Positions 11,422-28,072 of a DNA stretch of 64,000 nt are shown here, in pieces. Numbering within the stretch: position 1 is the first letter of the stretch; each line of letters opens with the position of its first letter. The stretch spans positions 62,001 through 126,000 of the forward strand of contig NZ_FQUM01000008.1 in NCBI RefSeq assembly GCF_900129025.1, in the 5' to 3' direction. The position numbers were made by a program, and so were the translations under genes. Under the pieces are notes generated by a model, which was not told the DNA's origin, ran no database searches, and was given only the letters and a program-made list of their open reading frames with translations. The stretch comes from Mariniphaga anaerophila (GTDB taxonomy: Bacteria; Bacteroidota; Bacteroidia; Bacteroidales; Prolixibacteraceae).

Positions 11422-13386
11422 TTATTTACCAACTTCCTTTTTTGTGACGAGCAAATCGTCATAATACACAGGTTGAGTTCCACTATTTACAAAATAGAAA
11501 GAACAGTCAGACTTGTTTTGAGTTTTTGGTACCCAAAATTTCAAGATCAGCCTTTTCCATCCGGCAGGATTTATCGAATCACACACGTTGCTATGAAAGC
11601 GGACCTCTTTTCCGTAATCTGCAACTATATTTAATTGTTTCTCTTCAGAACCGTAGTACCATGCACTAATTTCCAGATAATTTATCCGGTTTATATCGTC
11701 GATGTATATTCTTGTACTATACTTGTTTTTATTGGTAAGCTTAATGCTGTGCAATCCGCTAAGCGGTTTTTCTTCTGAGAGATACTTTTTTGTTTCTGTT
11801 TTTTCTTTCATTGAAAGAAGCGTATCACCCTCAGTTGAATTAAGCCCCTCGAAGCTACAGGAAAGAGAGTCAATGGTTGCAAATAAATTCTTCTTTTTAA
11901 AAGGTCTATTTGACAAGTCCTTTCGTTTCAACAAAAACACTGGGAATTCTTTGGCAATAATATCCCAGTTGGGATCTGATAAGTATTCGTTTCGTTTCTC
12001 TTCATTAAGAGAATGAGGATATAGATAGTTATTGTCGAATACAGAAAAAATGAGGTATTCAGCATCTTTAACAACTGGGAAAAAGTAGATATGTTGCCTT
12101 TGTGCAATATGAGGTAACAGAACATTAGATGCACTTACTTTTGCCTTTGGTGGAATTTTTTTTAGAAGTCTGTTTACCTCTTTTACATCAAAAGGAGGGA
12201 TGAAAAATTGTTTGTCATAGAATTTCACCTTCGCTGTATTTAGGAGTCTGGGAACTTGGTTGTTTTTTTTATCTAATTTATAAATTGTTGTTGTTACCGA
12301 TAAAAGGCATACCATTACAACAAGTATGTTTTGTATTGTTTTTGATTTAAATGAGGATAGAGCTAAAAATACAGCGAGAGGGAGTAGTGTCACCACTTCG
12401 ATAGAGTAATAAGTGGCAATTCCCCAGCGAGAAGGTAAATCGTTTAATACTTTTTGTGCAACTATCGGGATGAACCAAATAAGGTATTGTGGCCTGGTCA
12501 ATAGTACAAATCCACCGGAGATTAGATATACCCAGTAAAATTCAGTTTTTACACCATCGTATGCAGGGTTGTCAAGGTGATTGATGAAGAATAGCTTGAA
12601 TGCTTCGAGAGGATTTTTAATTGAAAACAACAATGCTTCGCCGGGACTTGAGCCCAATGCCGAATAATTGAACAGAGCATATTTTACTCCGGGAGTTTCA
12701 ATGGCAGGAATAAACACTTTAAATAGAAGTATAAAATAAACAGTCGAAATAGCGATTCCTGCCAGGCAATACAGAACTACCTTACTCTCTTTTCGGTGTT
12801 CGATAGCAAGAACTATGAAAATAAAAATGAACCATAAAGGAATATTTTCTCTTGATAGCAGGGAAAGGATCAGAATAACCAGCGATACAAGGTATTTCCT
12901 GATTTCAAAATAGTAGATAAATATTGGAATAAAACACGACGATATTATTGCCAGGTTGACATCACTTGAAAAAGCAGTGTATCTCCCCAGTAAAACGAAA
13001 TAGTAGATCAGTACTCCTGTATTCAACCATATATTATTGGTCTTAAGTTTGATTAGTTTATAGGTGTACCAAGCTCCTATTAAAATGAAAGAGCATTGAA
13101 TTATGATTAGTGTATAAGAACCCGTTAACCAGTTGAATAACCAGTATGTAGGTGCAAAATACATCAGCGTAAAAGAGAAATGGTCTTGCAAAAAATTTCC
13201 CCTGAATGTTGGAATGGGACTTAGCCTAAAATGAGAATAATCCCAGAATGCAAAATTGTAGTTACCGTAATCGTGGGTAAAAGTTCTGAAAAAATAGTGG
13301 TTCAAAATACCTATTGAAAGAAAAAGAATTCCAAATAAAGCTAATACTAAATACGGAATATGATTATTGCGGATTTTCATTTGCAT
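11422..13386 (-). CDS. DUF2079-type polytopic membrane protein with C-terminal beta-sandwich domain
   Basis: A 654-residue protein. The first part (about residues 10-380) has around ten membrane segments, with FTHDYGNYNFAFWDY and GNFLQDHFSFTLMYFAPTYW, which resemble the DUF2079 family (GT-C-like fold, function unproven). A soluble part follows; its last about 130 residues contain SGLHSIKLTNKNKYS and a terminal YYDDLLV, like the carbohydrate-binding-like modules in neighbouring proteins. The gene is flanked on both sides by the two metallophosphoesterase genes and runs opposite to them. The DNA here is visibly more A+T-rich than the core regions, which may indicate acquisition. Confidence 0.72.
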   Translation of the reverse strand: MQMKIRNNHIPYLVLALFGILFLSIGILNHYFFRTFTHDYGNYNFAFWDYSHFRLSPIPTFRGNFLQDHFSFTLMYFAPTYWLFNWLTGSYTLIIIQCSFILIGAWYTYKLIKLKTNNIWLNTGVLIYYFVLLGRYTAFSSDVNLAIISSCFIPIFIYYFEIRKYLVSLVILILSLLSRENIPLWFIFIFIVLAIEHRKESKVVLYCLAGIAISTVYFILLFKVFIPAIETPGVKYALFNYSALGSSPGEALLFSIKNPLEAFKLFFINHLDNPAYDGVKTEFYWVYLISGGFVLLTRPQYLIWFIPIVAQKVLNDLPSRWGIATYYSIEVVTLLPLAVFLALSSFKSKTIQNILVVMVCLLSVTTTIYKLDKKNNQVPRLLNTAKVKFYDKQFFIPPFDVKEVNRLLKKIPPKAKVSASNVLLPHIAQRQHIYFFPVVKDAEYLIFSVFDNNYLYPHSLNEEKRNEYLSDPNWDIIAKEFPVFLLKRKDLSNRPFKKKNLFATIDSLSCSFEGLNSTEGDTLLSMKEKTETKKYLSEEKPLSGLHSIKLTNKNKYSTRIYIDDINRINYLEISAWYYGSEEKQLNIVADYGKEVRFHSNVCDSINPAGWKRLILKFWVPKTQNKSDCSFYFVNSGTQPVYYDDLLVTKKEVGK

Positions 13387-13504: not shown

Positions 13505-13575
13505 GAAATGAAAGTCAACTATTTGTTCTCGCAAGCGCTGATTTTGTAACCTGCAATGTATTAAATGATGATGTG

Positions 13576-14454
13576 ATGCTAAGGAATTCTTTTTTTCTTT
13601 TTTTCTTTCTTTTTAGAGTTTTAAATATTTCAGCCCAGGAAGATACAACAAAGTATATTTTTTTAGGGCATACTTATCAATGGTATGTGCCCGGTTATAA
13701 AGCTGATTTACGTTTGCATGAAATTGAATTGGAGCAATATGACGGAGTTTGGTTGGGGGGAGACGTTTGTTCTGAAAGCCTTTTAGAATACCGAATTCTA
13801 GAGTACATTGATAGTCTGTTTAATCTGACTCATCCAAATTCTCACTGGACTATGGGAAATCATGATGCAAGAAACGGGAACTGGATTTGGTTGGAAGAAT
13901 TAACAGGAAAGAAGACTTATAATACGAGTCATTACAAGGGAATTTCCTACATCGTATTAAATACAACACTTACACCATACGATTGTGAACAATTGGACGA
14001 CCAGTATCAAATGATTATGAATGTTTGCGATACTATCCAAAGCTCTTCACATTTAATAATGTTAATGCATCATGGTATATGGCAAAATGTTCCCGGATTG
14101 CCGCCATCTCCTTATTCCTACGCTCAAAGCAATCTCACCTATTTCAAATTCAATTGTTTTTCTGACGAAAGTTCTTTCCTCGATGAAATTTACCCGAAAC
14201 TGGTGAAGGTGCAAAACAGGGGAATTGATGTTATTTGCATTATAGGAGATATGGGAAACAGGAAAATCGATTATACTTCTGATGATGGCATTCGTTTTTT
14301 GGGAGCAGGGTTGCATAAAAGCTATTACAAAGACATGGAAGAAAGAAAAAAGGCAGATCCCGATTATGTATTAATCTTTAAACATGTTCCGGCAACAGGC
14401 AGTCTAACCTGGGAATTTGTCGACCTCGATATCCTTTCCGGATATCAATATTAA
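13576..14454 (+). CDS. Exported metallophosphoesterase-like protein (intact paralogue)
   Basis: A 292-residue protein with an N-terminal signal peptide ending near NISAQ. It shows a calcineurin-like metallophosphoesterase pattern: IFLGHTYQW (first metal motif, with Gly where Asp is usual), WLGGDVCSES, MGNHDARNGNW, a paired His in MLMHHGIW, and GAGLHKSYY as a possible last motif. Such enzymes use two metals to cleave phosphomonoesters or diesters; the substrate is unknown. It is closely related to the broken gene at 10479-11373, so the two arose by duplication with the DUF2079 gene between them. The ATG at 13576 is preferred to the GTG just before it. Confidence 0.75.
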   Translation: MLRNSFFLFFFLFRVLNISAQEDTTKYIFLGHTYQWYVPGYKADLRLHEIELEQYDGVWLGGDVCSESLLEYRILEYIDSLFNLTHPNSHWTMGNHDARNGNWIWLEELTGKKTYNTSHYKGISYIVLNTTLTPYDCEQLDDQYQMIMNVCDTIQSSSHLIMLMHHGIWQNVPGLPPSPYSYAQSNLTYFKFNCFSDESSFLDEIYPKLVKVQNRGIDVICIIGDMGNRKIDYTSDDGIRFLGAGLHKSYYKDMEERKKADPDYVLIFKHVPATGSLTWEFVDLDILSGYQY

Positions 14455-15908
14455 TTCTGAATAACTATTTTCCCGGCGTGCACAATGCCTGAATTCTCTA
14501 CAATTTTGTAAAAGTATAGTCCGCTTTCTTTTCTGACCTGAATTGTGTTTTTTTCATTCGCCTCAATTTGTTTCTGCATCACCACTCTTCCGAGCGGATC
14601 AAAAAGAGAAAAAGACAGCGGATTGTTGTTGTCTGAAGTTACTTCTACATTGATTGTCTGTCTGGCGGGGTTAGGATAGACATATACCAGGGTTTCTCTG
14701 TCGAGAGGAATATTTTCTGAAAATGTTTTTGCATCTCCTTCTTTGGTTATTTTATACAATACAATATCTTTTCTTCCGTAAGCTCCTTTGTCTGTCCAGC
14801 CCGTAAAAACACAGCCGGAGTCGTCTGTGCATACCATTGAACTGCTGTAATCAGAACCCTCTCCTCCGTAGGTGTTTTCCCAAATAACTTCCCCATCTAA
14901 ATCTGTTTTAACCAGAAAATGGTCTGGCTTTTTGTTGTCTGAATAACTTGCACTTGTTCCAAGTAAAAACAGTGTATTATCAGTACTTAGCTGAACGCTT
15001 TCTCCGTATTCAAAATTATTTCCTCCGAATGTTTTGAACCACAATTGGTTTCCGTCGTCATCAATTTTCATCAGGAACATATCAAAATTTCCGGCACCTT
15101 CGCTTTGGGTTGAGCCGCATATATAGTATCCTCCTCCGGGGGCATGAATAATTGATTTTGCCCAATCGTGTTTTTCTCCTCCGTAAGTTTTTTTCCAAAT
15201 CACTTGTCCTTCTGCGTCTGTTTTAATGATGTATATATCTGCATCCGGATTATGGTAGTCTGTGCTTGTCGGATTATAAAAACCGCCCATGGTGCCGGCA
15301 ATAATAAACTCCCCCAATTCATTTTCAATTACATCAAAACCGTGGTCTACATATTTATCTCCCATATGGTTTTCCCACAATAGTTCTCCTTGTTTATCGG
15401 CTATTACAAAATAAACATCGCCGGTTAAATCAACTCCTGTGCTAAATCCGATCATGGCAAAACCATTGTTTTTAGTCGTTATGAATTTGTGTCCCAAATC
15501 GTTGTTTTGCCCGCCATAAAATTTTGACCATTTTAGATTTAGATCAAAATCCAGTTTGTGCAAAAACATATCGTTGTTCGGATAGCCTCCATCCCAGGTT
15601 TTTCCCAGCAGATAAATTCCACTCTCATCTACAATTATATCTTTTCCTATGTCACCATGAACACCGCCAAATAAATATTCCTTTACCAAACGACCGTTCT
15701 CATCAAGTACAATAACAAAGTAATCTGTTGCGCTTTTACTGTTTTTTCTGGAAGTGCCCAAAATATAAAAGCTGTTTTCATACTGCACTATTGAATTTGC
15801 AATGTCTTCTTCGGTGCTGCCAACAAATATTGCATCTTGCCCATACAGGTTAAAAACTAAAGGCAGTACAAAAAAGACTGATAAAATGTGTTTAATCCTA
15901 TTTCTCAT
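14451..15908 (-). CDS. T9SS-secreted beta-propeller-like repeat protein
   Basis: A 485-residue protein with a signal peptide (about 1-23, ending at NLYGQ), about seven repeats of roughly 50-60 residues, each with a core such as ENTYGGEGSDYSSSM or KTFGGNNFEYGES and a following GxT/S element, and a C-terminal type A sorting domain (about residues 405-485) beginning YVYPNPARQTINVEV and ending in a short KIVIQN tail. The repeats suggest a propeller-type surface protein. The sorting domain directs export by the type IX system and anchoring or release at the cell surface. It overlaps the convergent metallophosphoesterase gene by 4 nt. No enzyme motif seen. Confidence 0.8.
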   Translation of the reverse strand: MRNRIKHILSVFFVLPLVFNLYGQDAIFVGSTEEDIANSIVQYENSFYILGTSRKNSKSATDYFVIVLDENGRLVKEYLFGGVHGDIGKDIIVDESGIYLLGKTWDGGYPNNDMFLHKLDFDLNLKWSKFYGGQNNDLGHKFITTKNNGFAMIGFSTGVDLTGDVYFVIADKQGELLWENHMGDKYVDHGFDVIENELGEFIIAGTMGGFYNPTSTDYHNPDADIYIIKTDAEGQVIWKKTYGGEKHDWAKSIIHAPGGGYYICGSTQSEGAGNFDMFLMKIDDDGNQLWFKTFGGNNFEYGESVQLSTDNTLFLLGTSASYSDNKKPDHFLVKTDLDGEVIWENTYGGEGSDYSSSMVCTDDSGCVFTGWTDKGAYGRKDIVLYKITKEGDAKTFSENIPLDRETLVYVYPNPARQTINVEVTSDNNNPLSFSLFDPLGRVVMQKQIEANEKNTIQVRKESGLYFYKIVENSGIVHAGKIVIQN

Positions 15909-16249: not shown

Positions 16250-19222
16250 ATGATTGTTACGGATAAAAATATAATTGCACTAATTATATCTGTTATTGTT
16301 GTTTTTGGGTGTACTCCCGGCAACAATACAAAAGAAGATGATTTTGAAAATATTTTTAAGTGCAGCGCCGAGAAACTGGATAACAGCGGGAAAAAGTTTG
16401 TCGACGAAAAAAATCAATCCATGGAGTTCGGGAATGTTGAGACCCGCACTTCAGAACAAGCTTATTCCGGCGAATATGCCTCGAAATTGACTCCTCAAAC
16501 TCCCTATGGATTTACTACTGATTTTACTGCAGGAGCAGACGAGTATTTTAAAGTTACTGCCTGGCGAAAAAGCAATGATGATAACGGGGTTATTGTTATT
16601 GACTGTGGCGAAGGGTATTACCATGCCGGGAAATTTGTGGTAGAGGAGCGGAAAGACGGATGGCAGAAAATATACCTGGAAGCATATACTCCGCCGCACT
16701 TTCTTTTTGGGAAAGTAAGAATATTTGTCTGGAACAACAGTCAGGATACCGTTTATTTTGATGACCTTGAGATTGTTCATCGCCAGCACAAAGATTATCC
16801 GGAATATGATCGTTTTTCTGCATTGAGCATTTATGTGGAGGATAATAACCTGAACTATTTCAATAAAAAACGAATTGAAGCATTTGATAATGGTGTTCTG
16901 GTTAACGAAGATGAAGATTATGCCGGGGCTGTTATTTTTGACGGGAATGATTTTTTGAACGGTGAGGTCAGGTTAAAAGGCGATCTGATGGATCATATTC
17001 AGGGCGACAAATGGTCGTTCAGAATTAAGCTGAAAAGTGATTTTGCATGGAACCATGTTCGTACGTTTTCGGTGCATGACCCGGCAACCCGTAATTTTTT
17101 GCACGAATGGCTGGCTCATCAGATTTTTACCCGCGAAGACGTGCTTACCACCCGTTACGGTTTTGTTCCGGTGGTGCTGAACAACCGGTCGAGAGGTATT
17201 TATGCATGGGAAGAACACTTCGAAAAGCACCTGATAGAAAACAGAGACCGGCGTGAAGGCCCAATTGTGCGTTTCGACGAAACCCTGTTTTGGAACCGTG
17301 TTATGGAAGCCAACACAACAAAAAAGGCCTGGGATGTAGATTACTTCGGTGCTGCTAAAATTACTCCGTTTAAGGAAGGCTCGGTAACTTCCGATTCTTT
17401 AAAAACCAGGCAGGCCGAAGAAGCTCAAAAGCTGATGCTGCAATACAAAACCTGTTCGATGCCTGTATCGGAAATTTTCGATGTTGATGTATTGGCCAGG
17501 TATTACGCGTTAATGGATATTACCCAGGCTTACCACGGTTTTACATGGCACAACCAGCGGTTTTATTTTAATCCGGTAACCTGCCTGCTGGAACCGATTG
17601 CGTTCGATGGGTACATTGAAGGCGGTATTTTTAAGCGAATTGACGAGCCGATGATTTCGCTTTTGGATCCTGCCAAATTGAATACATTTCATAAAGAAGA
17701 GTTGATGCTTTACCAGGTTTTTACCGATAGTTCGTTTAATCGAAAATACCTGGAAAATTTGAAGGCGTATTCTGATCCCCTGTATGTTGAAAATGTGGTG
17801 CGGCAATATACTCATCAGGCCGATTCGTTGAGCGGATTAATCAGACAAGAGTTCCCGTATTATCATTTCAATTTTGATTTTATTCGCAGTCAGGCGCGAC
17901 TGGTCAGGGAGAACCTGTCGAATATTGAAAATAATGTTCAGCGACTGAACAGTGCGTTCAGGCAAATCAATTACGAGAAATTCAGAAACCAATATACTAC
18001 TGAAGTCGGTTCGAATATTACTCCGTGGCTGGTTCAGGCTTTTTACAACAAGGGGAACAGAACAATGGACGTTCTGAATTATCATGGCGGGGAAGTTTCT
18101 GTTGTTGGTGTTTTGGTCGCCGACAATCTGCCCGAGAGTTTTTCGCCTAATGTGAAACTGCCTGCTTACGACGGGGTTAACCCGGGAAAAGCAACTATTT
18201 CTGTGCAGGGCGAGCCTAATAAAATACTTTTTAATGCAGGCGGAAAGATGCTGGAATCTGATGTGAGCCACTGGGCATTTAGCGACGAAATCAGTTCGAG
18301 GCAACGTTTAATGAATAGTGCGAATGAGGCAAAATTGACCGAAAGTAGCGATTCCATCATTTTCGACGGCAAATATGTTTTTAACAGCGATGTTTATATT
18401 CCTGCCAATAAGAAAGTTGTTTTTTTGCCCGGAACACAAATTGATTTGGTAAACGGAGCCGGCTTTTTCTCCTTTTCAGCGTTTTATTCGATGGGAGAAG
18501 AAAAGCGTACGGTTGAGTTTTTCTCCAGCGACAAAAGTTCTCAGGGCGTTCATGTTTTGCAGGCGTCAGAACGGTCAATATTAAAACATACGCGTTTTTA
18601 CCGGTTGGGAAGCATTCGAAAAGGCGGCTGGCAAACGCCTTCGGCAGTTACTTTTTACGAGGCCGATGTAGATTTTTCTTATTGCACGTTTGAGGCGAAT
18701 GTTGATTGCGATGATGCACTAAATGTGGTTCGCTCCGACTTTTTTGCTAAAAACTGCCGGTTTATCGATACATTTGCCGACGCGTTCGATTCGGATTTTT
18801 GTACCGGAAGAGTACTGGATTGTGAGTTTGTGAATATGGGGAACGATGCCATCGACTTTTCAGGAAGCCGGGTTTTTATTTCGGGATGCACAATGTTTGA
18901 AATAAGCGACAAAGCAATTTCAGGTGGCGAAAATTCGCAGCTAACCGTGAAAAACTGTAAAGTGAATAAGGCTACAATTGGTGTTGCCGCCAAAGATCTT
19001 TCTTCGGTTGAAATAGAGGGCTCGGAGATTCGGAAAACAGTTTATGCTTTTGTGGCATTTAAGAAAAAGCCTGAATACGGGTCGGCAAGCATTTCAGCCG
19101 AGAATGTCAGGTTAAAAGGAAACCTGACCTTTCATAAAATTGAAGAAGGCTCGTTGCTTAAAGTGAATGGGACTGAAATATTTGGAAGAGAGAAAAAGTT
19201 AGCATTAAAATTATATCAATAA
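16250..19222 (+). CDS. Lipoprotein with beta-sandwich, CotH kinase-like and beta-helix domains
   Basis: A 990-residue predicted lipoprotein: hydrophobic N-terminus with the lipobox VVFGC (Cys about residue 21). Residues about 60-180 form a carbohydrate-binding-like sandwich ending VYFDDLEIV. Residues about 230-560 look like a CotH kinase domain, with RLKGDLMDHIQGDKWSFRIK, RNFLHEWLAHQIF, WHNQRFYFNP and an IAFDG segment that may hold the metal-binding Asp. Residues about 690-960 have repeating short strands (CTFEANVDCDDALN, CRFIDTFADAFD, CEFVNMGNDAIDFSGS) typical of a right-handed parallel beta-helix. CotH of Bacillus is a spore-coat protein kinase. DUF4956 and VTC genes follow after 15 and 3 nt, so this is an operon. 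Confidence 0.75.
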   Translation: MIVTDKNIIALIISVIVVFGCTPGNNTKEDDFENIFKCSAEKLDNSGKKFVDEKNQSMEFGNVETRTSEQAYSGEYASKLTPQTPYGFTTDFTAGADEYFKVTAWRKSNDDNGVIVIDCGEGYYHAGKFVVEERKDGWQKIYLEAYTPPHFLFGKVRIFVWNNSQDTVYFDDLEIVHRQHKDYPEYDRFSALSIYVEDNNLNYFNKKRIEAFDNGVLVNEDEDYAGAVIFDGNDFLNGEVRLKGDLMDHIQGDKWSFRIKLKSDFAWNHVRTFSVHDPATRNFLHEWLAHQIFTREDVLTTRYGFVPVVLNNRSRGIYAWEEHFEKHLIENRDRREGPIVRFDETLFWNRVMEANTTKKAWDVDYFGAAKITPFKEGSVTSDSLKTRQAEEAQKLMLQYKTCSMPVSEIFDVDVLARYYALMDITQAYHGFTWHNQRFYFNPVTCLLEPIAFDGYIEGGIFKRIDEPMISLLDPAKLNTFHKEELMLYQVFTDSSFNRKYLENLKAYSDPLYVENVVRQYTHQADSLSGLIRQEFPYYHFNFDFIRSQARLVRENLSNIENNVQRLNSAFRQINYEKFRNQYTTEVGSNITPWLVQAFYNKGNRTMDVLNYHGGEVSVVGVLVADNLPESFSPNVKLPAYDGVNPGKATISVQGEPNKILFNAGGKMLESDVSHWAFSDEISSRQRLMNSANEAKLTESSDSIIFDGKYVFNSDVYIPANKKVVFLPGTQIDLVNGAGFFSFSAFYSMGEEKRTVEFFSSDKSSQGVHVLQASERSILKHTRFYRLGSIRKGGWQTPSAVTFYEADVDFSYCTFEANVDCDDALNVVRSDFFAKNCRFIDTFADAFDSDFCTGRVLDCEFVNMGNDAIDFSGSRVFISGCTMFEISDKAISGGENSQLTVKNCKVNKATIGVAAKDLSSVEIEGSEIRKTVYAFVAFKKKPEYGSASISAENVRLKGNLTFHKIEEGSLLKVNGTEIFGREKKLALKLYQ

Positions 19223-19237
19223 AAGTAAATTTTTAAC

Positions 19238-19918
19238 ATGGATAAGTGGAACCTGTTTCAACGGTTTTTAATAACCGAAAACGCACAAATTTCCATTTGG
19301 GAATTTTTAATCAATGCCGTCATTATTTTGGTTTTGTCGTTTATTCTCGAATGGACCTATCGCAAATGCGCCAAAAGCCTTTCGGGTAGAAGAGCGTTTG
19401 CGGCCAACTTTTTTTTAATTGCATTTACCACCATGCTAATTATCTCCATTGTGAAATCGTCGTTAGCGCTGTCACTGGGGTTGGTAGGTGCACTGTCAAT
19501 TGTCCGTTTCCGTTCGGCAATAAAGGAACCAGAAGAGCTGGCTTACCTGTTTTTTACCATTGGAATTGGTTTGGGCTTTGGCGCAAATCAGCGGGTGGTA
19601 ACAGTTGTTGCCGCTTTAATTCTTTTGGCAGTAATATGGGGAAGATATTTAACTTCAAAAAAAACAAGAAAACAGAACTTGTTTCTTACCGTTAGCGGAA
19701 CGGGCACCGAAAAACCGTCTCTCGGTAAAATTGATGAGTTGGTGCAGCATGTTTTTAAAGCATCGAAACTGGTTAGGTTTGACGAAACTTCAGATTTAAT
19801 TGAAGCGGGTTTTTGGATTGAAATAAAAAGCTCAGATGACCTTCAGCAATTTAAAAACAGCCTTACCGAGATTAGCCCGGAGACGCGCGTTTCGTTTGTT
19901 GACAACAACTCCTTTTAA
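19238..19918 (+). CDS. DUF4956 membrane protein
   Basis: A 226-residue protein with about four membrane segments in its first 145 residues and a soluble C-terminal domain. The core MLIISIVKSSLALSLGLVGA followed by LSIVRFRSAIKEPEELAYLF is characteristic of DUF4956, often found beside VTC-domain and CotH genes. The conserved Arg/Lys/Glu patch after the glycine-rich helix (SIVRFRSAIKEPEE) suggests an ion- or phosphate-handling site, but no function is established to my knowledge. It starts 15 nt after the CotH-like gene and ends 3 nt before the VTC gene, so the three are very probably cotranscribed. Confidence 0.82.
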   Translation: MDKWNLFQRFLITENAQISIWEFLINAVIILVLSFILEWTYRKCAKSLSGRRAFAANFFLIAFTTMLIISIVKSSLALSLGLVGALSIVRFRSAIKEPEELAYLFFTIGIGLGFGANQRVVTVVAALILLAVIWGRYLTSKKTRKQNLFLTVSGTGTEKPSLGKIDELVQHVFKASKLVRFDETSDLIEAGFWIEIKSSDDLQQFKNSLTEISPETRVSFVDNNSF

Positions 19919-19921
19919 CAA

Positions 19922-20629
19922 ATGCAAGGATACACCCGGTTAGATACTTATCGTTACGAGCGGAAATTTGTGGCGGAGAAAGTGCCGCGACAGGTGGTCG
20001 AATCCATCGTAAAGCAAAACAGTGCATTTTTTGCAACTGCTTTTCCTGCCCGGCAGGTTAATAACATCTATTTTGACACGACCGGGATGGATTGCTATTT
20101 CGCCAATATTTTTGGAGTGGGACAGCGCTCGAAAGTTCGTGTAAGGTGGTACGGGAAACTGTTTGGCGAAGTGGTATCTCCTGTTTTGGAATTCAAAATA
20201 AAAAAAGGGTTCACCGGGACGAAGAAGTCGTTTAAGTTGCCTTCGTTTAAAATCGAAGAAAAGCAGTATAACGTAGATTTGTGGAAGGATTATTTTTCGG
20301 GTGCCGGCCTGCCCGACGACGTTTTGATAAAACTTTCAGGCCTGCAGCCGGTATTGCTAAATGCATACAAAAGAAGTTATTTCGAGTCGCATGACCGAAG
20401 GTTTAGAATTACGGTTGACGACCAACTGGAGTATTACAACCTGCGGCCAACCTGGAACCAATTTTTACACAAGCACAGTGAACACCGGAAATCGGTAATT
20501 GAATTAAAATACGATCAAACCTGGGAAGATGATGCGGAACAGATAACAAATCAGATTCCTTTCCGTTTGGATAAAAACTCTAAATATGTTTCCGGGGTGA
20601 GCTATTTCAGGCCGGAAATACCTGTTTAA
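19922..20629 (+). CDS. VTC-domain protein (predicted polyphosphate polymerase type)
   Basis: A 235-residue protein of the triphosphate tunnel metalloenzyme superfamily. It has YRYERKF near residue 10-16, NNIYFDT, the basic strand SKVRVRWYG, the acidic/basic strand PVLEFKIKKG, LNAYKRSYFES, RITVDDQLEYYN and a final VIELKYD, which together line the tunnel in yeast Vtc4. Vtc4 makes polyphosphate from ATP. In this family position the bacterial product is not proven. No membrane segment is visible, so it presumably works on the cytoplasmic face with DUF4956. A methyltransferase-GT2 fusion begins 9 nt after its stop, extending the operon to four genes. Confidence 0.85.
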   Translation: MQGYTRLDTYRYERKFVAEKVPRQVVESIVKQNSAFFATAFPARQVNNIYFDTTGMDCYFANIFGVGQRSKVRVRWYGKLFGEVVSPVLEFKIKKGFTGTKKSFKLPSFKIEEKQYNVDLWKDYFSGAGLPDDVLIKLSGLQPVLLNAYKRSYFESHDRRFRITVDDQLEYYNLRPTWNQFLHKHSEHRKSVIELKYDQTWEDDAEQITNQIPFRLDKNSKYVSGVSYFRPEIPV

Positions 20630-20638
20630 CTTAAAGCT

Positions 20639-22075
20639 ATGGATATTTACAAGGAAAAAAAACAACACCTGAAAGATTATTTCAACAAGGCGGCAGCAAC
20701 CCGAATAAAGTACCGTAGAAGTAAAAGCTATTACTGGGACAGTATTACCCGGTACGTGGATTTTTTTATCGACGACGAATCGTCAGTACTCGAAATTGGG
20801 TGCGGAACAGGTGAGTTGCTAAACAAAATAAAAGGAAAAGAGAAGACCGGAATTGATTTTAGCGAGAAAATGATAGAGGAAGCGCAGAAGCAGTTTCCCG
20901 AAATAAAGTTTGTTTGTTGCCCTGCTGAAAGCATTGAACTCGATAAAAAATTTGATGTAGTTGTTCTTTCCAATGTTATAGGTTATCTGGTTGATATACA
21001 ACAGGTATTTGAGGAGATACATAAAGTTTGTCATGCCGAAACAAAAATTGTAATTACTTATTACAATATTTTTTGGGAACCGCTTATTAAGTTCGCTGAG
21101 TTTATAGGAATTAAGAAAAGAGGCCCGAAACAAAGCTGGATTTCGAGAAAAGACCTGGCCAACCTGCTTTACCTTGCGGGTTTTGAAACTTACAAGCAGA
21201 ATTCGTCCATGCTGTTTCCATTTTATGTTCCGCTTTTGTCTTCGTTTCTGAACAAATTTTTGTCGCGGCTACCTGTGTTTAACTGGTTTGCGCTTAACCA
21301 GTACAGTTTTGCCCAGCCCGTTGCTAAGGTTAGTGAAGAAGAGGTACAGCGTAAGTATTCGACAACTGTGTTAATTCCGGCGCGTAACGAAAGCGGCAAC
21401 ATTGAAAACGCCATTTTGCGTATGCCTGATTTCGGGAACCACATTGAAATCATTTTTGTGGAAGGAAATTCTACCGATGATACCTGGGAGAAAGTTCAAC
21501 AGATTCAGCAAAAGTACAAAGATACCCACGACATAAAAATTCTTCAGCAGCCCGGAAAAGGAAAAGGAGATGCCGTTCGTGCAGGTTATGACGTTGCAAC
21601 CGGTGATATATTAATGATTTTGGATGCAGACCTGACAGTGCCGCCGGAACAACTGCCGAAGTTTTACAATGCCATTGCTGCCAACAAGGGTGGTTTTATA
21701 AATGGCACTCGGCTAATTTATCCGATGGAAAAAAATGCCATGCGGTTTTTAAATACGCTTGGAAACAAATTTTTTAGTCTGGCTTTTAGCTGGCTGTTGG
21801 AACAACCGGTAAAAGATACGTTGTGCGGTACCAAAGTGATGTTCCGTAAAGATTATCTGAGGCTGGCCGCAAACCGTTCGTACTTTGGGAATTTTGACCC
21901 GTTTGGTGATTTTGATTTGCTTTTTGGTGCGTTCAAGCTGAATCTCAAAATAATTGATATGCCCATCCGCTACCAGGAACGTATTTATGGCGATACCAAC
22001 ATTTCGAGGTTTAAACACGGTTTGTTACTGCTGAAAATGTGGTGGTTTGCTTTGTTTAAAATCAAATTCATGTAG
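20639..22075 (+). CDS. Fusion of SAM-dependent methyltransferase and DPM1-like glycosyltransferase
   Basis: A 478-residue protein with two enzyme domains. Residues about 45-150 are a class I methyltransferase with the SAM motif VLEIGCGTGELL, then GIDFSEKMIEEA and VVVLSNVIGYL. Residues about 238-465 are a GT2 domain with TTVLIPARNESGNIENAI, EIIFVEGNSTDDTWE, GKGKGDAVRAGYD, the metal motif ILDADLTVPPEQ and DTLCGTKVMFRKDY, as in polyprenyl-phosphate sugar synthases. The two halves are joined by about 70 residues. It closes the CotH-DUF4956-VTC operon (9-nt gap). The methyl acceptor is unknown; the sugar or a polyprenyl-linked product is one option. Confidence 0.85.
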   Translation: MDIYKEKKQHLKDYFNKAAATRIKYRRSKSYYWDSITRYVDFFIDDESSVLEIGCGTGELLNKIKGKEKTGIDFSEKMIEEAQKQFPEIKFVCCPAESIELDKKFDVVVLSNVIGYLVDIQQVFEEIHKVCHAETKIVITYYNIFWEPLIKFAEFIGIKKRGPKQSWISRKDLANLLYLAGFETYKQNSSMLFPFYVPLLSSFLNKFLSRLPVFNWFALNQYSFAQPVAKVSEEEVQRKYSTTVLIPARNESGNIENAILRMPDFGNHIEIIFVEGNSTDDTWEKVQQIQQKYKDTHDIKILQQPGKGKGDAVRAGYDVATGDILMILDADLTVPPEQLPKFYNAIAANKGGFINGTRLIYPMEKNAMRFLNTLGNKFFSLAFSWLLEQPVKDTLCGTKVMFRKDYLRLAANRSYFGNFDPFGDFDLLFGAFKLNLKIIDMPIRYQERIYGDTNISRFKHGLLLLKMWWFALFKIKFM

Positions 22076-22115: not shown

Positions 22116-23534
22116 TTACTTCAGGGCTTTGTTGGTGTAAATCTCTCCCCACGCATGTTTTAGCTTGAATTCTTTTATAAGTTTATTTTCATTTTTAATC
22201 GTATCCATTTGCGCAGTAACTCCGTAGGATGTGCATTCGTTTAAAAAGATCTCAGCATCACGATATTTATTTAATATCATGACATTTTTAAAATTCTTTT
22301 CAGAAGAAAGGTATCCCAAATGGGGATTTCGTAAACAAAATATGAGGTTGAAGCTTGTTGCAATTGATTCATCGTGCCAGCCCTGTCCTTCGCAAAATTC
22401 AACCATCTGCTGGTGTGTTTTTACTACTTCTGCATAGCCTAAATCGCTGTCTGCATTTGTTTTCTGCGTAAATGTATAGACAAGAGGAATCGCTGTAATA
22501 ACCACAAGAATTATTCTGTTTGCAATTCTGTTTTCAAATTTAGATTGAGAGAGAATAACTCCGGCAATAACCATGAAGAGTGCTAAAAGGCTTAGCATGT
22601 ATCGCTGGGTGTAAAAATTTAGGGCCGAGAACAATACAAAAACAATAATTTGCAAAGTTGCTAATGCCAGTAATTTGCCATTCTCAATTTTTCTCTTCCT
22701 GATTAAAACAGAAGCCAGGGCAAAAATGACCGCTGCCAGTATTATAATTCTTCCATACCGGGTAAAAATAATTCCGGCAGCAATTTTCAATTTTCTAAGA
22801 ATAGTAGTAAAATCCGCCTGAACATAGTTAAGATGTTCATTAAAAAAGTACGAGCCAAATTCTTTTTTATGAAGGATTAGAAAAGCTCCGTAAATAAAAA
22901 TAGGAACGACCAACCACAAGCTTTCTTTTACAAATTTGGACAGATTCTCTTTTTGAATCAGTGAAATAATAAAATGAAAAAGGAGGAATCCTCCAATAAA
23001 AATAATGCTGGTCTCTTTGGTTAGTACCATCAGAGAAGCCAATAAAGCAAACAACGCTAATTTTTTATTTAAATAGGCATTTGTAGAAAGTAGCAGTAGC
23101 AGTGTAACTAACATTTCGGGAAGAAGCATAGTTGCCTGAGCCAGAAAAAGTGATTGTACGCTAAACAACATCACTGCAATATTGGCTGCCCACAAACCGG
23201 CGTGTTTTTTTACCAGGAAGAAAGTGGCAGTCAACGTTCCCAAAGAAATAAGTAAAGGCAATATATGCACTGCAAAAACAGAAGTGCCCACTAGTTTCAT
23301 CCAAAGTGATGACAGAAAGAAGAAGAATAGCGGGTGTCCTTTGGCGTCCCATAGGGGGAGTGCTCCTGGAAGCAATCCCGGTCCATTTTCATACATTTTA
23401 TATACTGCCGGAAAATAAGACCACGCTTCATCCCAAAAATATGGTAAATATAGATGGGGAAATTTTACAATTACCACAAAAAGCAGGGGAACAATAAATA
23501 GGTAGTTCTTGAGTTTTATAGCACTTATTTTCAT
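22116..23534 (-). CDS. GT39-like membrane glycosyltransferase
   Basis: A 472-residue polytopic GT-C protein, with the N-terminal periplasmic loop motif FPHLYLPYFWDEAWSYFPAV (Asp-Glu at the position used as base in GT39/ArnT enzymes) and then GALPLWDAKGHPLFFFFLSS. Around ten membrane segments run to about residue 365, with a soluble tail of about 110 residues. It probably transfers a sugar from a polyprenyl-phosphate donor to a periplasmic acceptor. Last gene of a three-gene minus-strand operon: GT2 (25612), GT39 with sandwich domain (23564), then this one after a 29-nt gap. Confidence 0.78.
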   Translation of the reverse strand: MKISAIKLKNYLFIVPLLFVVIVKFPHLYLPYFWDEAWSYFPAVYKMYENGPGLLPGALPLWDAKGHPLFFFFLSSLWMKLVGTSVFAVHILPLLISLGTLTATFFLVKKHAGLWAANIAVMLFSVQSLFLAQATMLLPEMLVTLLLLLSTNAYLNKKLALFALLASLMVLTKETSIIFIGGFLLFHFIISLIQKENLSKFVKESLWLVVPIFIYGAFLILHKKEFGSYFFNEHLNYVQADFTTILRKLKIAAGIIFTRYGRIIILAAVIFALASVLIRKRKIENGKLLALATLQIIVFVLFSALNFYTQRYMLSLLALFMVIAGVILSQSKFENRIANRIILVVITAIPLVYTFTQKTNADSDLGYAEVVKTHQQMVEFCEGQGWHDESIATSFNLIFCLRNPHLGYLSSEKNFKNVMILNKYRDAEIFLNECTSYGVTAQMDTIKNENKLIKEFKLKHAWGEIYTNKALK

Positions 23535-23563: not shown

Positions 23564-25606
23564 TTAGTTGTATGAAACGCGTTCAATCGATAAGTCGTCA
23601 AAATAAGCCTGTTTTTTGTCTTTGTTCCAAAGATAGACTTTAAGTGACGTTTTTTCCATTTCAGAAGTTACCTGAAAATTAATTCGTAGTAAATCCCAAC
23701 CGTCGCCAGAAGACGTAATATAGTCGTTTTGTGACTTGTAAAAAACATTGGGTGCGGTGGAGCCTATCACCAGACGTGCACTGTTATTATCAGATTTCCG
23801 CCAAATTTTCACCTCATATAATTCGTCTCTTTTTAAGCTGTCCATAAGGTATTCCATGGCAAATTCTGTATTGCTGTCCATTTTTATGGAATATTGCCCC
23901 GATTTTGCAACTTCGTTGGTTCGAGACAGAGCGCTACCAAATAATTCATTATTCAGACCTGAGAAGGTTTGGTTTTTATCCACTGTTTCAAATCCACAGG
24001 ACGCTATTTCTTCTGTTGTTTTTTTTCGCGCAATTTGCTGATATGCCAGGGTGTCGAGTTCATAAACTGCCTGAATACGCCCTTTGTAAATTTTTTTTAG
24101 AGGAAATCCTTTTTCTGTCATTTCTTCCGCCAATTTTTCATCCATCGGGCCACCAACCAGAATTATTTTAGAGCTGTTAAGCTGAATAATATCTTCCAAG
24201 AGTATCTCTGCATTCCAATGCTGAAAAAAATCATAATGAGAATTGTAGAAATATGTATTCGGATACAATTCTTTCAGGTAAGGCAGCATCTTGTTTTTTG
24301 TATAAACATCTCCAAAATTGAGGGCTGAGAATTTATTTAATGAATATGGATAATAGTATATCCGTGTGTAATCTGCATAATTTTTTGTCAGCATTAATTC
24401 GGTAGAGTCAATCTCTTCATTTGTTATTTTGTACCCATAATCTGCATATTCAATTTTTCCCGGTTGTCTGAACGAAAGAAATAGCAGTAGAGAGATTGTC
24501 ATTACCGGCAATACGATTTTTTGTGGTATCGTCAATACTTTCAGAATAAAAAGTATGGTTATACCTGTTAAAAGGAGCACCGGAATCAAATAGTGGTTTG
24601 GGTGAACAATATAATGTTTGGAAACAATTAAAACGCCCAGAATACTGGAAGCAACTAACCCAATAAGGATACGAACGTCAGAGTTGTCTTTATTTAGCTT
24701 TTTGCTTTCAGCTCGTTTTATATAGTACAGAACTACGGATAGTACACCAATTACGGTGACAACAAAAAATATCGGATTATTTTTGAATATTTCCAGCATG
24801 TTATGAAAATAGGAGGAAAAGTCAATTAATCCCTTTTCTCCGTGGCCATATTTTCCGGTTCTGTTTATTAAGTTTCTAAACCAGAAATACATATGTTTGT
24901 ATTCGGGAATTGCAGGAATTATGAACAATAGAAATGACAAAACAGTACTGCCTGAAAAAATCATTTTCTTTTTAACACCTTTGAATAGTATTAACGGAAA
25001 AAGTACCAGAGGAAGAAATGTGGCTTTTGTTGCCAGCCCGAAACCGGTGATTAAAGCGAACAGAAATACAAATTTGTATGAGCTTTTGTTCTCAGAAGCA
25101 GTGAAATAGAGTATTGTAATTACATATATGCAGGTGATAAAAAACAGAAGGGGTTCGGGCTCTACTTTTGTCCATATATGGTCAAGTGTATTCGCGCTGA
25201 TTAATGTTGTAGCTTGTAATAAAAGCGCAGCCCACAACGATCTTGTTTTTTTGTAGGCAATCCAGCCGAGCAGCAACAACACTAACGAGTTCAGGACTAC
25301 CAGTACATATTGAATGGCATCCATAAACTTGAGTGGATTTTTCAGAACATTTGTTACCAGGTCTACATTTTCTGGGTTTGAAAACAGGTGTTTAAACGAA
25401 ATAGTCAATGCTCCAATTTGCATGACAGTTGTTCCCGGATGATCGATATATCCCACGCTTTGTCCGTCGCAAATGGCGGTGGCGTTAGCCAGGTAAACGT
25501 AGTTAGGGTCGTTTCCGTATTTCGCATGCGTTATGTGGAATCCGCCCCACAAGAAAACAACAGGAATCAGGAGAATGCAATATCGCAAGTATTTCGCTAA
25601 TTTCAT
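23564..25606 (-). CDS. GT39-like membrane glycosyltransferase with C-terminal beta-sandwich domain
   Basis: A 680-residue protein. The membrane part (about residues 8-400) begins with a HITHAKYGNDPNYVYLANAT loop, in which the Asp-Pro-x-Tyr may replace the usual acidic catalytic motif, then IDHPGTTVMQIGAL. After a soluble segment, residues about 550-678 contain KSGQYSIKMDSNTEFAMEYL, VKIWRKSDNNSARLVIGS and a terminal QAYFDDLSIERV, strongly similar in pattern to the sandwich of the CotH-like lipoprotein (AWRKSNDDNG, VYFDDLEIV). The GT2 stop is 5 nt upstream of its ATG, indicating tight coupling with the donor-making enzyme. Confidence 0.75.
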   Translation of the reverse strand: MKLAKYLRYCILLIPVVFLWGGFHITHAKYGNDPNYVYLANATAICDGQSVGYIDHPGTTVMQIGALTISFKHLFSNPENVDLVTNVLKNPLKFMDAIQYVLVVLNSLVLLLLGWIAYKKTRSLWAALLLQATTLISANTLDHIWTKVEPEPLLFFITCIYVITILYFTASENKSSYKFVFLFALITGFGLATKATFLPLVLFPLILFKGVKKKMIFSGSTVLSFLLFIIPAIPEYKHMYFWFRNLINRTGKYGHGEKGLIDFSSYFHNMLEIFKNNPIFFVVTVIGVLSVVLYYIKRAESKKLNKDNSDVRILIGLVASSILGVLIVSKHYIVHPNHYLIPVLLLTGITILFILKVLTIPQKIVLPVMTISLLLFLSFRQPGKIEYADYGYKITNEEIDSTELMLTKNYADYTRIYYYPYSLNKFSALNFGDVYTKNKMLPYLKELYPNTYFYNSHYDFFQHWNAEILLEDIIQLNSSKIILVGGPMDEKLAEEMTEKGFPLKKIYKGRIQAVYELDTLAYQQIARKKTTEEIASCGFETVDKNQTFSGLNNELFGSALSRTNEVAKSGQYSIKMDSNTEFAMEYLMDSLKRDELYEVKIWRKSDNNSARLVIGSTAPNVFYKSQNDYITSSGDGWDLLRINFQVTSEMEKTSLKVYLWNKDKKQAYFDDLSIERVSYN

Positions 25607-25611
25607 TTTTG

Positions 25612-26358
25612 TTATTTGGGTTGAAAAATCTTATTCTTTATAAGCCCCCATTTTTGCAGCCTGAATTGCAACGACGTTTGCAAAACGCCAATGCCGTAAA
25701 TGCTGCTGTTTTTTATGTTAATGCTCGATGCGTCGTCGAAATATTTGGTGGGGCAGGTAACTTCTGCAATGTCGTATCCGGCGTACCAAATCTGGGCAAG
25801 CATCTGGTTGTCGAACACAAAATTATCGGAGTTGGCGTTGTAGTTTACATTTTCCAATACTTCGCGGGTAAACGCGCGGTATCCGGTGTGGTATTCCGAA
25901 AGTTTGGCATTCATTAATATATTCTGAATGAATGTTAGTCCACGGTTTGCAACGTATTTAACAAGCGGCATTCCGCCTCTGAGAGCGCCTTTCCCCAAAA
26001 TACGCGAGCCGAGAACAACATGGTACAGTCCGCTTCCTAATATGCTGGCCATGGCAGGAACAAGTTTCGGGGTGTATTGATAATCCGGGTGGAGCATAAT
26101 TACAATATCGGCACCAATTTCGAGAGCCTTGTTGTAACACGATTTTTGGTTTCCGCCGTAACCGGTGTTTTTTTCGTGAACGATGATGTGTTTTATCCCT
26201 AGTTTTTTGCCCACTTCTACGGTCTCGTCTTTACTAAGGTCGTCTACTAATATAACATCATCTACAATTGTAAAATCAATTTCGTTGTATGTAATTTCCA
26301 GTGTTTTGGCGGCGTTGTATGCTGGCAACACAACTACAACTTTTTTCCCGTTAATCAT
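25612..26358 (-). CDS. DPM1-like family 2 glycosyltransferase
   Basis: A 248-residue GT-A enzyme. Motifs are VVVVLPAYNAAKTLEITYNE, DVILVDDLSKDETVE, NTGYGGNQKSCYNKALEIGA and MLHPDYQYTP (the DxD-like metal site is HPDYQY here), followed by VLGSRILGKGALRGGMP and EYHTGYRAF. This resembles polyprenyl-phosphate glucose or mannose synthases. The ATG at 26358 directly precedes the conserved fold; the upstream extension is poly-Lys and low complexity and was not used. First gene of the operon with the two GT39 genes. Confidence 0.85.
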   Translation of the reverse strand: MINGKKVVVVLPAYNAAKTLEITYNEIDFTIVDDVILVDDLSKDETVEVGKKLGIKHIIVHEKNTGYGGNQKSCYNKALEIGADIVIMLHPDYQYTPKLVPAMASILGSGLYHVVLGSRILGKGALRGGMPLVKYVANRGLTFIQNILMNAKLSEYHTGYRAFTREVLENVNYNANSDNFVFDNQMLAQIWYAGYDIAEVTCPTKYFDDASSINIKNSSIYGIGVLQTSLQFRLQKWGLIKNKIFQPK

Positions 26359-26484
26359 TCCTTTTTTTTTAATGAGCGGTAAAAATAGCAAGAAAAAAGG
26401 AGAGCGTTTATATGAATGAAAAATATATCTGCTTTTACGCTAACCCGAATGGCAGAACATTTTAATGAAATAGTTTTTTCCTGA

Positions 26485-27417
26485 CTAAAAAACCGGATTG
26501 GCGTCAGATTCCATTAATTCAAACAGCACACCTTCTCGAAGGGCGAAATTCGTCTGGATAATTTGCGAAATGCCTGAGGCTTCAACCAACAACCCAATTA
26601 AAATCATTGCCGGGACAATGAGGTCGATGCGAACCGGATCCATCCCTTTTATGTTCATGCGTTGTTCCCGGGTTGATTCCACAAGCAAGTAGTACACCCT
26701 CCAAAAGTCTGCCATCCTTATTTCCTGTTTTTTTCGTGGCTTTTCTTCCGGATTAACCTGATCGATGATATCTGCAATTGTATCAAAAGTACCCGAGCAT
26801 CCAACAAGTGTTTTTACCTTGTGAAGGCTGCACTGCTCAAAGGCCGCTTTGTGCCATTCGAAATAAAAGTTTCTCAGGGTTTCAATTTCGTTCGGTTTTA
26901 TGGGGTCGGATATGGCAAGTTGTGTAACAACATGGAACATCCCCGCAGGCTGACTTTCTTTCCAGTTTAGCTCTTTTTTGTGAGCTATGATTAGCTCGTT
27001 GCTGCCTCCGCCAATGTCTAAAATGACAGACGGATTTCTTAAATTACCAAGGGCCAGCAGAACTCCCTTGAAAATGAGGTCGGCCTCCTTTTTCCCGGAA
27101 ACCACCCTTATTATCCATCCCGATTCTTCGCTTACTTCATCGAGAAACGGGATTTTGTTTACGGCGTCGCGAACGGCTGATGTTGCAAACACGCACACTT
27201 TTTCGACCCTATGTTCTTCTATAATTTTTTTTTGTGTTAAAATTGCTTTGGTAACACGAGCGGTGGCTTCTTCACTAATCTGATGGGATTTTATCTTGCT
27301 GTCGCCAATTTTTACCAATTGCTTGCTCTGATGCAATATGTTGAACCTCGGTTTGTTAACTTCCGCTATTAATAAATTGCAAGTGTTTGTGCCCAAGTCA
27401 ATAACAGCTACCCTCAT
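26485..27417 (-). CDS. Ppx/GppA family phosphatase (exopolyphosphatase type)
   Basis: A 310-residue ASKHA-fold protein. It starts VAVIDLGTNTCNLLIAEV (phosphate-1 motif) and has SAVRDAVNK, the phosphate-2 motif VILDIGGGSNELI near residue 135-147, and LVGCSGTFDTIADI near 220. Family members hydrolyse terminal phosphates of polyphosphate or pppGpp. Its 310 residues correspond to the short (domain I-II only) type. It is codirectional with the GT2-GT39 operon downstream (127-nt gap) and lies 6 kb from the VTC gene, which may make its substrate. Confidence 0.88.
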   Translation of the reverse strand: MRVAVIDLGTNTCNLLIAEVNKPRFNILHQSKQLVKIGDSKIKSHQISEEATARVTKAILTQKKIIEEHRVEKVCVFATSAVRDAVNKIPFLDEVSEESGWIIRVVSGKKEADLIFKGVLLALGNLRNPSVILDIGGGSNELIIAHKKELNWKESQPAGMFHVVTQLAISDPIKPNEIETLRNFYFEWHKAAFEQCSLHKVKTLVGCSGTFDTIADIIDQVNPEEKPRKKQEIRMADFWRVYYLLVESTREQRMNIKGMDPVRIDLIVPAMILIGLLVEASGISQIIQTNFALREGVLFELMESDANPVF

Positions 27418-28072
27418 CTCGTGCTTTTTAAGTGAAACAATACTTTAAAATTGAAAAATGTTCAAATGTAAGTTTTACCCTGATTCTTTTAAACGCAATG
27501 TTTGTCCAACGAGTGTGTGTGTTGATATGGGGAAGGCTTCTGTTTGTATTGAATGAAGCGTTATTTTTTTCGCTTCCTTCCGGATGTGTTTTCAAAAAGA
27601 AATGCTGTTCAATTGTTTGTATGGACTGAAAAAGACACCGCCGGGAAAGAATCGAGACTGCGGTTTCACCCCTCTGGATTTGAGTTTTAGAATTGCCCGA
27701 AAATTCATTGTCGGGCCACTTTTGTTTTGCAGGGTGTTGAAACTGTCTTGTGACTTTTTGATGAGAAAGTTGCGGTGATACCAAACGGAAAATATTTCCT
27801 GCAACAAGTGCGGGAAACATCTTTTTCGGGAGTTTTAGGATGGTTCTTAAAACTTCTATCCCCCATTTCATGCGCTAAAGGTAGAAAGAATTTTGTGAAC
27901 CAAATTCAAATTGCCAGGTTGTTTTTTACCCGGAGCATGAATTTTAAAAGAAGATTTACATTGTTCTTTTAATGCCGTTTTATAAGCGAAAAAAGCATAA
28001 CCCGTTCAAATACAAAAACGTCGGTTAATGCGTTGCTTTTAGGTGTTGTTTCTGTTTTTGCAGCAGAAGTTT
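27418..28072. other. 655-nt region without a supported gene
   Basis: Lies between the Ppx gene and the glucosaminidase gene. Short frames exist on both strands, the longest about 147 codons on the minus strand (27428-27871), but they are poor in recognisable motifs and have unusual composition for this genome. Only the Ppx promoter element was recognised. It may be a decayed gene or a non-coding RNA locus. Confidence 0.4.
27463..27470 (-). promoter_or_regulatory. -7 promoter element for the Ppx gene
   Basis: Read on the minus strand it is TACATTTG, a full TAnnTTTG match, 45 nt before the ATG at 27417. A TTTA at about 19 nt further upstream could be the -33 element. Confidence 0.5.

Follow-up and report, generated by a model that had tools for sequence, protein, structure and literature searches.

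A cotH gene, a poly-phosphate polymerase gene and a DUF4956 gene have been reported as a trio beside Gram-positive pel clusters (PMC7112168). The trio of Streptococcus intermedius is SIR_1592-1594; in this species, deletion of the DUF4956 or the CotH gene alters the level of Pel and lowers aggregation, and the authors of that study describe no synteny of the trio outside Pel (PMC12345266). We analysed a trio of the same families (CotH, DUF4956 and VTC) in a 64,000-nt stretch of the Mariniphaga anaerophila genome (GCF_900129025.1, contig NZ_FQUM01000008.1), hereafter the window, to which all coordinates refer. No PelG match was obtained in the M. anaerophila genome, and no pel genes were found among the scanned neighbours. 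Since M. anaerophila has the trio but no PelG, the published claim of its absence outside pel is too narrow; the trio is also present at many other Bacteroidota loci. The initial annotation of the window had stated that the system has no defined function, which holds for the most part, except that it left out the Gram-positive pel clusters and the effects of the deletions on Pel. The genes and domains of the locus, with family calls made by Pfam at curated cut-offs, are as follows.

16250-19222, plus strand: surface lipoprotein P0001, 990 amino acids, carbohydrate-binding module (CBM)-CotH-beta-helix (Pfam CotH and Beta_helix; AlphaFold model)
16361-16783, plus strand: CBM-like jelly-roll module of P0001, residues 38-178 (BLASTP to P0008 and P0010; Foldseek)
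16811-17941, plus strand: CotH kinase-fold domain of P0001 (VIA-align to 5jd9; hhalign to canonical CotH profile)
17528-17536, plus strand: A427-Y428-H429, site of the canonical CotH catalytic Asp in WDxY (alignments)
18329-19201, plus strand: parallel beta-helix of P0001 (VIA-align to AlgG 4nk6; conservation)
19238-19918, plus strand: DUF4956 membrane protein P0002 (Pfam; model)
19922-20629, plus strand: VTC-domain protein P0003 (Pfam; profile to yeast Vtc4)
20639-22075, plus strand: methyltransferase and GT2 fusion P0004 (Pfam; 9-nt gap)

The first three open reading frames (ORFs), of 990, 226 and 235 amino acids, all lie on the plus strand, separated by 15 and 3 nt, in full agreement with the initial annotation; the CotH, DUF4956 and VTC families assigned at that time all score above the Pfam cut-offs, and the lipoprotein assignment agrees with the signal peptide of P0001, which ends with the lipobox VVFGC. 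The features overlooked were the fourth gene, the N-terminal CBM-like module, the C-terminal beta-helix and the absence of the CotH catalytic Asp. Because the fourth gene (478 amino acids) starts only 9 nt past the VTC gene, it is probably a member of a four-gene operon, and a methyltransferase-GT2 fusion occupies the equivalent position in the related loci L103 and L104. The genome as a whole carries one VTC, two DUF4956 and one CotH gene, together with PPK1 at another site.

The association of the three families was analysed in a phylum sample of 198 evenly drawn Bacteroidota genomes, 37 of which carry VTC (38 VTC loci). In counts uncorrected for phylogeny, DUF4956 is present in all 37 VTC genomes, always within 4 kb of VTC, against 22 of the 161 non-VTC genomes (Fisher p 5e-25), and CotH is found somewhere in all 37 against 44 of the 161 (Fisher p 8e-18); at a minimum of 13 of the 38 loci, CotH is no more than 6 genes away from VTC. 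Outside the phylum, the genome of Corynebacterium glutamicum, included as a control, also gave matches to each of the three families. The order CotH, DUF4956, VTC is identical in 12 of 12 first-fetched loci of the window's type, including the window itself. Because of this constant order and the phylum-wide co-occurrence, the grouping is not a matter of chance, in good agreement with the earlier statement that the three families recur as neighbours; the gene neighbourhood is thus conserved in related genomes. Around the beta-helix CotH genes, VTC and DUF4956 are located within 4 genes in 27 of the 60 loci with sufficient flanking DNA. When the beta-helix CotH locus lacks VTC (24 genomes), VTC is found elsewhere in 21 and DUF4956 elsewhere in 23, against baselines of 37/198 and 59/198 in the phylum sample, from which we infer that the link is functional rather than one of mere neighbourhood.

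Some of the related loci depart from this arrangement. At L066:7812-10136, VTC is included in an unusually long ORF (774 amino acids) beside DUF4956 and CotH matches, a possible fusion or frame problem. Three loci (L054, L061 and L120) carry two CotH genes near a single VTC-DUF4956 pair, with tails of the type IX secretion system (T9SS) type and, for some, LTD and Fn3-associated domains. The beta-helix CotH gene is placed between DUF4956 and VTC at L197, L208, L212 and L215, with the record titles Deltaproteobacteria, uncultured bacterium and Ignavibacteriales; there are hints here of transfer between phyla, although the records are metagenome assemblies.

The partners of the VTC-DUF4956 pair suggest export, because a HlyD-type adaptor or a DUF2490 protein usually adjoins the pair: the former in 20 of the 38 phylum loci and the latter in 12 others (gathering scores were reached by the representatives L052 and L069, L064 being sub-threshold). 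HlyD and OEP are export components of Gram-negative envelopes. One locus (L069) carries the run CotH-DUF4956-HlyD-OEP-VTC, and VTC-less DUF4956 genes adjoin HlyD-type genes (L125-L127) or an OEP gene (L131). The DUF2490 proteins appear to be secreted, some of them with weak outer-membrane barrel scores, and export signals, either lipoprotein-like or of the T9SS type, mark nearly all CotH proteins encoded at VTC loci. The second DUF4956 gene of the M. anaerophila genome (L124:6878-7501) is followed by a DUF2490 gene, with neither VTC nor CotH within that fetched stretch.

The VTC domain of P0003 was identified by Pfam (87.8 bits, cut-off 23), and a profile of 20 VTC relatives matched yeast Vtc4 with E 1.1e-15. 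Eleven residues, K71, R73, R75, E90, K92, K94, R151, R162, D166, E194 and K221, are invariant in all 20 relatives, and R73, R75, E194 and K221 align with Vtc4 R264, R266, E426 and K458. In addition, K92, R151 and R162 are the counterparts of the Vtc4 residues that we take to be K281, R361 and R373. Joint replacement of R264, R266 and E426 inactivates yeast Vtc4 (PMC9911596), and K458 is catalytic (PMC4641920). Loss of the basic tunnel residues would have argued against polymerase function; the key ones listed above are instead kept in all 20 relatives, and P0003 is likely, as judged from its sequence, to be a polyphosphate polymerase. The yeast VTC channel is lined by Lys and Arg (PMC9911596). 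The DUF4956 match of P0002 (PF16316, 52.6 bits, cut-off 30.6) covers profile positions 17-107 of 169. Two arginines, R90 and R92, which close a hydrophobic helix, show no variation across 20 sequences; by sequence, P0002 matched neither Vtc1 nor any PDB entry.

The lipoprotein P0001 was matched by Pfam to CotH (31.7 bits, cut-off 23.8) and Beta_helix (34.4 bits, cut-off 25.9), and its AlphaFold model (mean predicted local distance difference test score, pLDDT, 86.6) consists of a jelly-roll, a CotH kinase fold, a beta-sandwich and a parallel beta-helix. The jelly-roll, at about residues 33-178, gave Foldseek matches to the porphyran CBM 8xmz, CBM16 and CBM22. A single-sequence PDB search with P0001 and a profile search with A1 gave no credible match, and the CotH fold was therefore identified through the canonical CotH profile (E 1.8e-13, hhalign) and by structure comparison of residues ~188-564 with 5jd9 (VIA-align Z 24.4, root-mean-square deviation (rmsd) 3.7, 328 aligned residues, 15% identity). 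Canonical CotH relatives carry the catalytic Asp within a WDxY-type motif. In the P0001 lineage, for which 92 sequences were aligned and the roles of CotH residues were taken from PMC7821199, this Asp is missing in 92 of 92: the window has A427, the others A, S, T, G, V or E, and in one alignment a gap replaces the dipeptide to which the Asp belongs. Other CotH-fold residues are kept, including H429 (90/92), K254 (88/92), E322 (91/92) and D453 (89/92), the last being the site of the metal-binding Asp (D251 of Bacillus subtilis). Since the D228Q replacement inactivates B. subtilis CotH (PMC7821199) and this lineage has no equivalent of D228, phosphorylation by P0001 is not safely deduced, and the initial reading as a CotH kinase is unsupported in its original form.

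The setting of the operon within a glycan gene cluster, proposed at first inspection, is supported by the Pfam calls on the neighbours in the window and in the related loci. The neighbours in the window are listed below.

11422-13386, minus strand: DUF2079 membrane protein P0010 with CBM-like module (Pfam; BLASTP)
13573-14454, plus strand: calcineurin-like phosphoesterase P0006 with N-terminal signal-like segment (Metallophos 26.4 bits, cut-off 21.5)
14451-15908, minus strand: secreted protein P0005 with a T9SS tail, a conserved neighbour in divergent orientation (Por_Secre_tail)
22116-23534, minus strand: PMT_2-type membrane glycosyltransferase P0007 (Pfam)
23564-25606, minus strand: membrane glycosyltransferase-like P0008 with CBM-like module at the C-terminus (BLASTP; no Pfam family above cut-off)
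25612-26391, minus strand: GT2 P0009, polyprenyl-phosphate sugar synthase-like (NCBIfam similarity, below cut-offs)

By BLASTP the CBM-like module of P0001 is homologous to the C-termini of P0008 (E 7e-13) and P0010 (E 1e-4), and in 58 first-fetched loci plus the window it is confined to P0001-type CotH proteins and adjoining membrane proteins. Because the module is common to both, it appears to link the lipoprotein with what the glycosyltransferases make. At the further locus L158, a neighbour protein matches CBM_4_9. The conserved neighbours of beta-helix CotH genes include GT2s, module-bearing membrane proteins, a calcineurin-like phosphoesterase (21 of 79 loci) and a T9SS-tailed protein (26 of 79), and single loci also hold MBOAT, AlgX-like, deacetylase or O-antigen ligase genes; most conserved neighbours are compatible with synthesis and modification of a surface polysaccharide. 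P0006 and P0005 (13573-15908) are convergent with a 4-nt overlap, and recur jointly beside beta-helix CotH in relatives. An ORF at 27428-27871 is likely no real gene.

We tentatively favour, at somewhat less than an even chance, a system in which polyphosphate made by the VTC protein is exported via DUF4956 and used by the lipoprotein on a surface glycan. The VTC protein would be a cytosolic, ATP-dependent polyphosphate polymerase acting on DUF4956, an inner-membrane protein that may form or gate the exit for the nascent polyanion, and polyphosphate would arrive in the periplasm or at the cell surface. The lipoprotein, with its CBM-like module, CotH fold and beta-helix, would use it there in modifying a polysaccharide that the adjoining polyprenyl-sugar GT2s and membrane glycosyltransferases synthesise; polyphosphate would either stand in for ATP, lacking at that site, as the phosphoryl donor or itself be attached to the glycan. 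The presence of PPK1 elsewhere in the genome suggests a dedicated role for VTC, and a glycan is suggested as the target by the shared module, the glycan genes and the secreted phosphoesterase. The scheme starts from observed features (gene order, protein families, the retained active site of VTC, export signals, co-occurrence across the phylum and the CBM-like module in common), from which the product, its export, its use and its target are deduced.

The scheme is weakest where polyphosphate is to be used on the glycan, and several observations speak against the scheme. Phosphoryl transfer by the CotH domain of P0001 is doubtful from the residues it carries. In the tripolyphosphatases of the same superfamily, four glutamates occupy sites where Vtc4 has basic residues (PMC4641920); at these sites P0003 carries the basic R11 and K196 but E13, the acidic residue also present in the N-terminal motif of tripolyphosphatases (the fourth site was not placed confidently), and its signature between polymerase and tripolyphosphatase is thus mixed. 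K105, at the site of Vtc4 K294, is not conserved among the 20 relatives, and polyphosphate activity of any bacterial VTC was not found in the literature searched. In S. intermedius, deletion of the VTC gene SIR_1593 gave no reported change of aggregation (PMC12345266). The window's own locus carries neither HlyD nor DUF2490, and the co-occurrence counts and Fisher p values given above carry no correction for phylogeny.

The beta-helix provides the next possibility. Its residues 694-984 superimpose on AlgG 4nk6 (VIA-align Z 27.3, rmsd 2.5, 270 aligned), and its core, with a mean identity of 65%, is among the best-conserved parts of P0001; the twelve polar residues D822, N825, R828, D844, D847, D849, N865, D866, D869, D887, K888 and E894 are each kept in 88-90 of the 92 sequences, while the CotH Asp is missing in all. 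The working part of the lipoprotein is no less likely to be a beta-helix acting on glycan than the CotH fold. The beta-helix could then be an epimerase, lyase or hydrolase, in keeping with a predicted fold nearest to AlgG and AlgE4 and with the CBM-like module, with the CotH domain as a ligand sensor or pseudokinase scaffold and with polyphosphate, which binds divalent ions, added to the matrix independently by VTC-DUF4956. However, no sequence match of the beta-helix to a known enzyme family, AlgG included, was found by Pfam or profile search, and the CotH fold retains K254, R281, E322, N435 and D453 in 88-91 of the 92 sequences, beyond the needs of a dead scaffold; we consider this explanation rather unlikely as a whole.

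A regulatory role, with VTC as a triphosphatase or ligand-binding tunnel and DUF4956 as an ACT-like sensor through which glycan output would follow the phosphate or nucleotide state, is unlikely in our estimate. The model of P0002 (mean pLDDT 76.6) shows a helical membrane part followed by a C-terminal ferredoxin/ACT-like domain (residues 142-225), which would be cytosolic in such a role, in agreement with the ACT domain described for the DUF4956 protein SIR_1592; deletion of SIR_1592 raises Pel and that of SIR_1594 lowers it (PMC12345266), and the retained E13 of P0003 points the same way. On the other hand, the recurrent HlyD, OEP and DUF2490 partners indicate transport, and the basic residues characteristic of Vtc4 are retained in P0003. 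Kinship of DUF4956 with MgtC or with channels is not claimed, because the Foldseek and VIA-align matches, mainly to the C-terminal domain (the only part, 142-225, covered by VIA-align), are many unrelated ferredoxin-like proteins.

A broader proposal, which we hold to be quite improbable at present, is that VTC-DUF4956 may be a widespread bacterial exporter of polyphosphate as the energy-rich phosphoryl donor for kinase-fold enzymes in the ATP-poor extracellular space, the lineage described here having lost the Asp and carrying a fused beta-helix that would act on the same glycan. General phosphate storage, in which VTC would be a second polyphosphate synthase lying near glycan genes by accident, is rated very low because of PPK1 in the genome and the strict co-occurrence with surface CotH proteins, even though VTC complexes produce storage polyphosphate in eukaryotes and a Ppx/GppA phosphatase gene (26485-27417, minus strand, 170.9 bits) lies ~6 kb from VTC. 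This phosphatase was rejected as a member of the polyphosphate system, as no relative is located near the trio in the other first-fetched loci.

The families and their clustering are already known. The literature searched contained no description of the Asp-less CBM-CotH-beta-helix architecture, of so strict a co-occurrence of the families, of the export partners or of the trio apart from Pel. To our knowledge, neither donor nor target is known for CotH-type proteins on bacterial surfaces; the linkage and the export partners make bacterial phosphorylation outside the cell without ATP directly testable. The trio is not restricted to Pel, and the catalytic Asp has disappeared from one CotH lineage whose beta-helix remains strongly conserved.

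Among described systems, the VTC/'tubulin'/CotH genes of Clostridium perfringens NELoc-2 (PMC2879425) likewise place VTC near CotH in a surface-related locus, but the context differs and the neighbour there is annotated 'tubulin'. The Bacillus CotH spore-coat kinases (5jd9, 5jda) have the same fold as P0001 (Z 24.4) and several of the same residues in the active site, whereas P0001 lacks the catalytic Asp, carries extra modules and is a surface lipoprotein rather than a spore-coat protein. AlgG, AlgE4 (mannuronan C5-epimerases) and other right-handed beta-helix polysaccharide enzymes resemble P0001 in predicted fold (Z 27.3 and 25.5) and in polysaccharide gene context, but at 12% identity, and the beta-helix of P0001 has an invariant residue set of its own, the likeness being one of fold. 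With the yeast VTC complex (Vtc1/3/4) the present system shares the key residues of the tunnel domain and a membrane partner in which conserved basic residues lie close to a hydrophobic helix; unlike the yeast complex, it has no SPX domain, carries the catalytic and membrane parts on separate proteins and is known from sequence. The accessory set of Gram-positive pel clusters agrees with this locus in the three families beside exopolysaccharide genes, in a secreted CotH and in a DUF4956 protein with an ACT-like domain, whereas the M. anaerophila locus is Gram-negative and without PelG, and combines an Asp-less CotH, carrying CBM-like and beta-helix parts, with polyprenyl-sugar and membrane glycosyltransferase genes.

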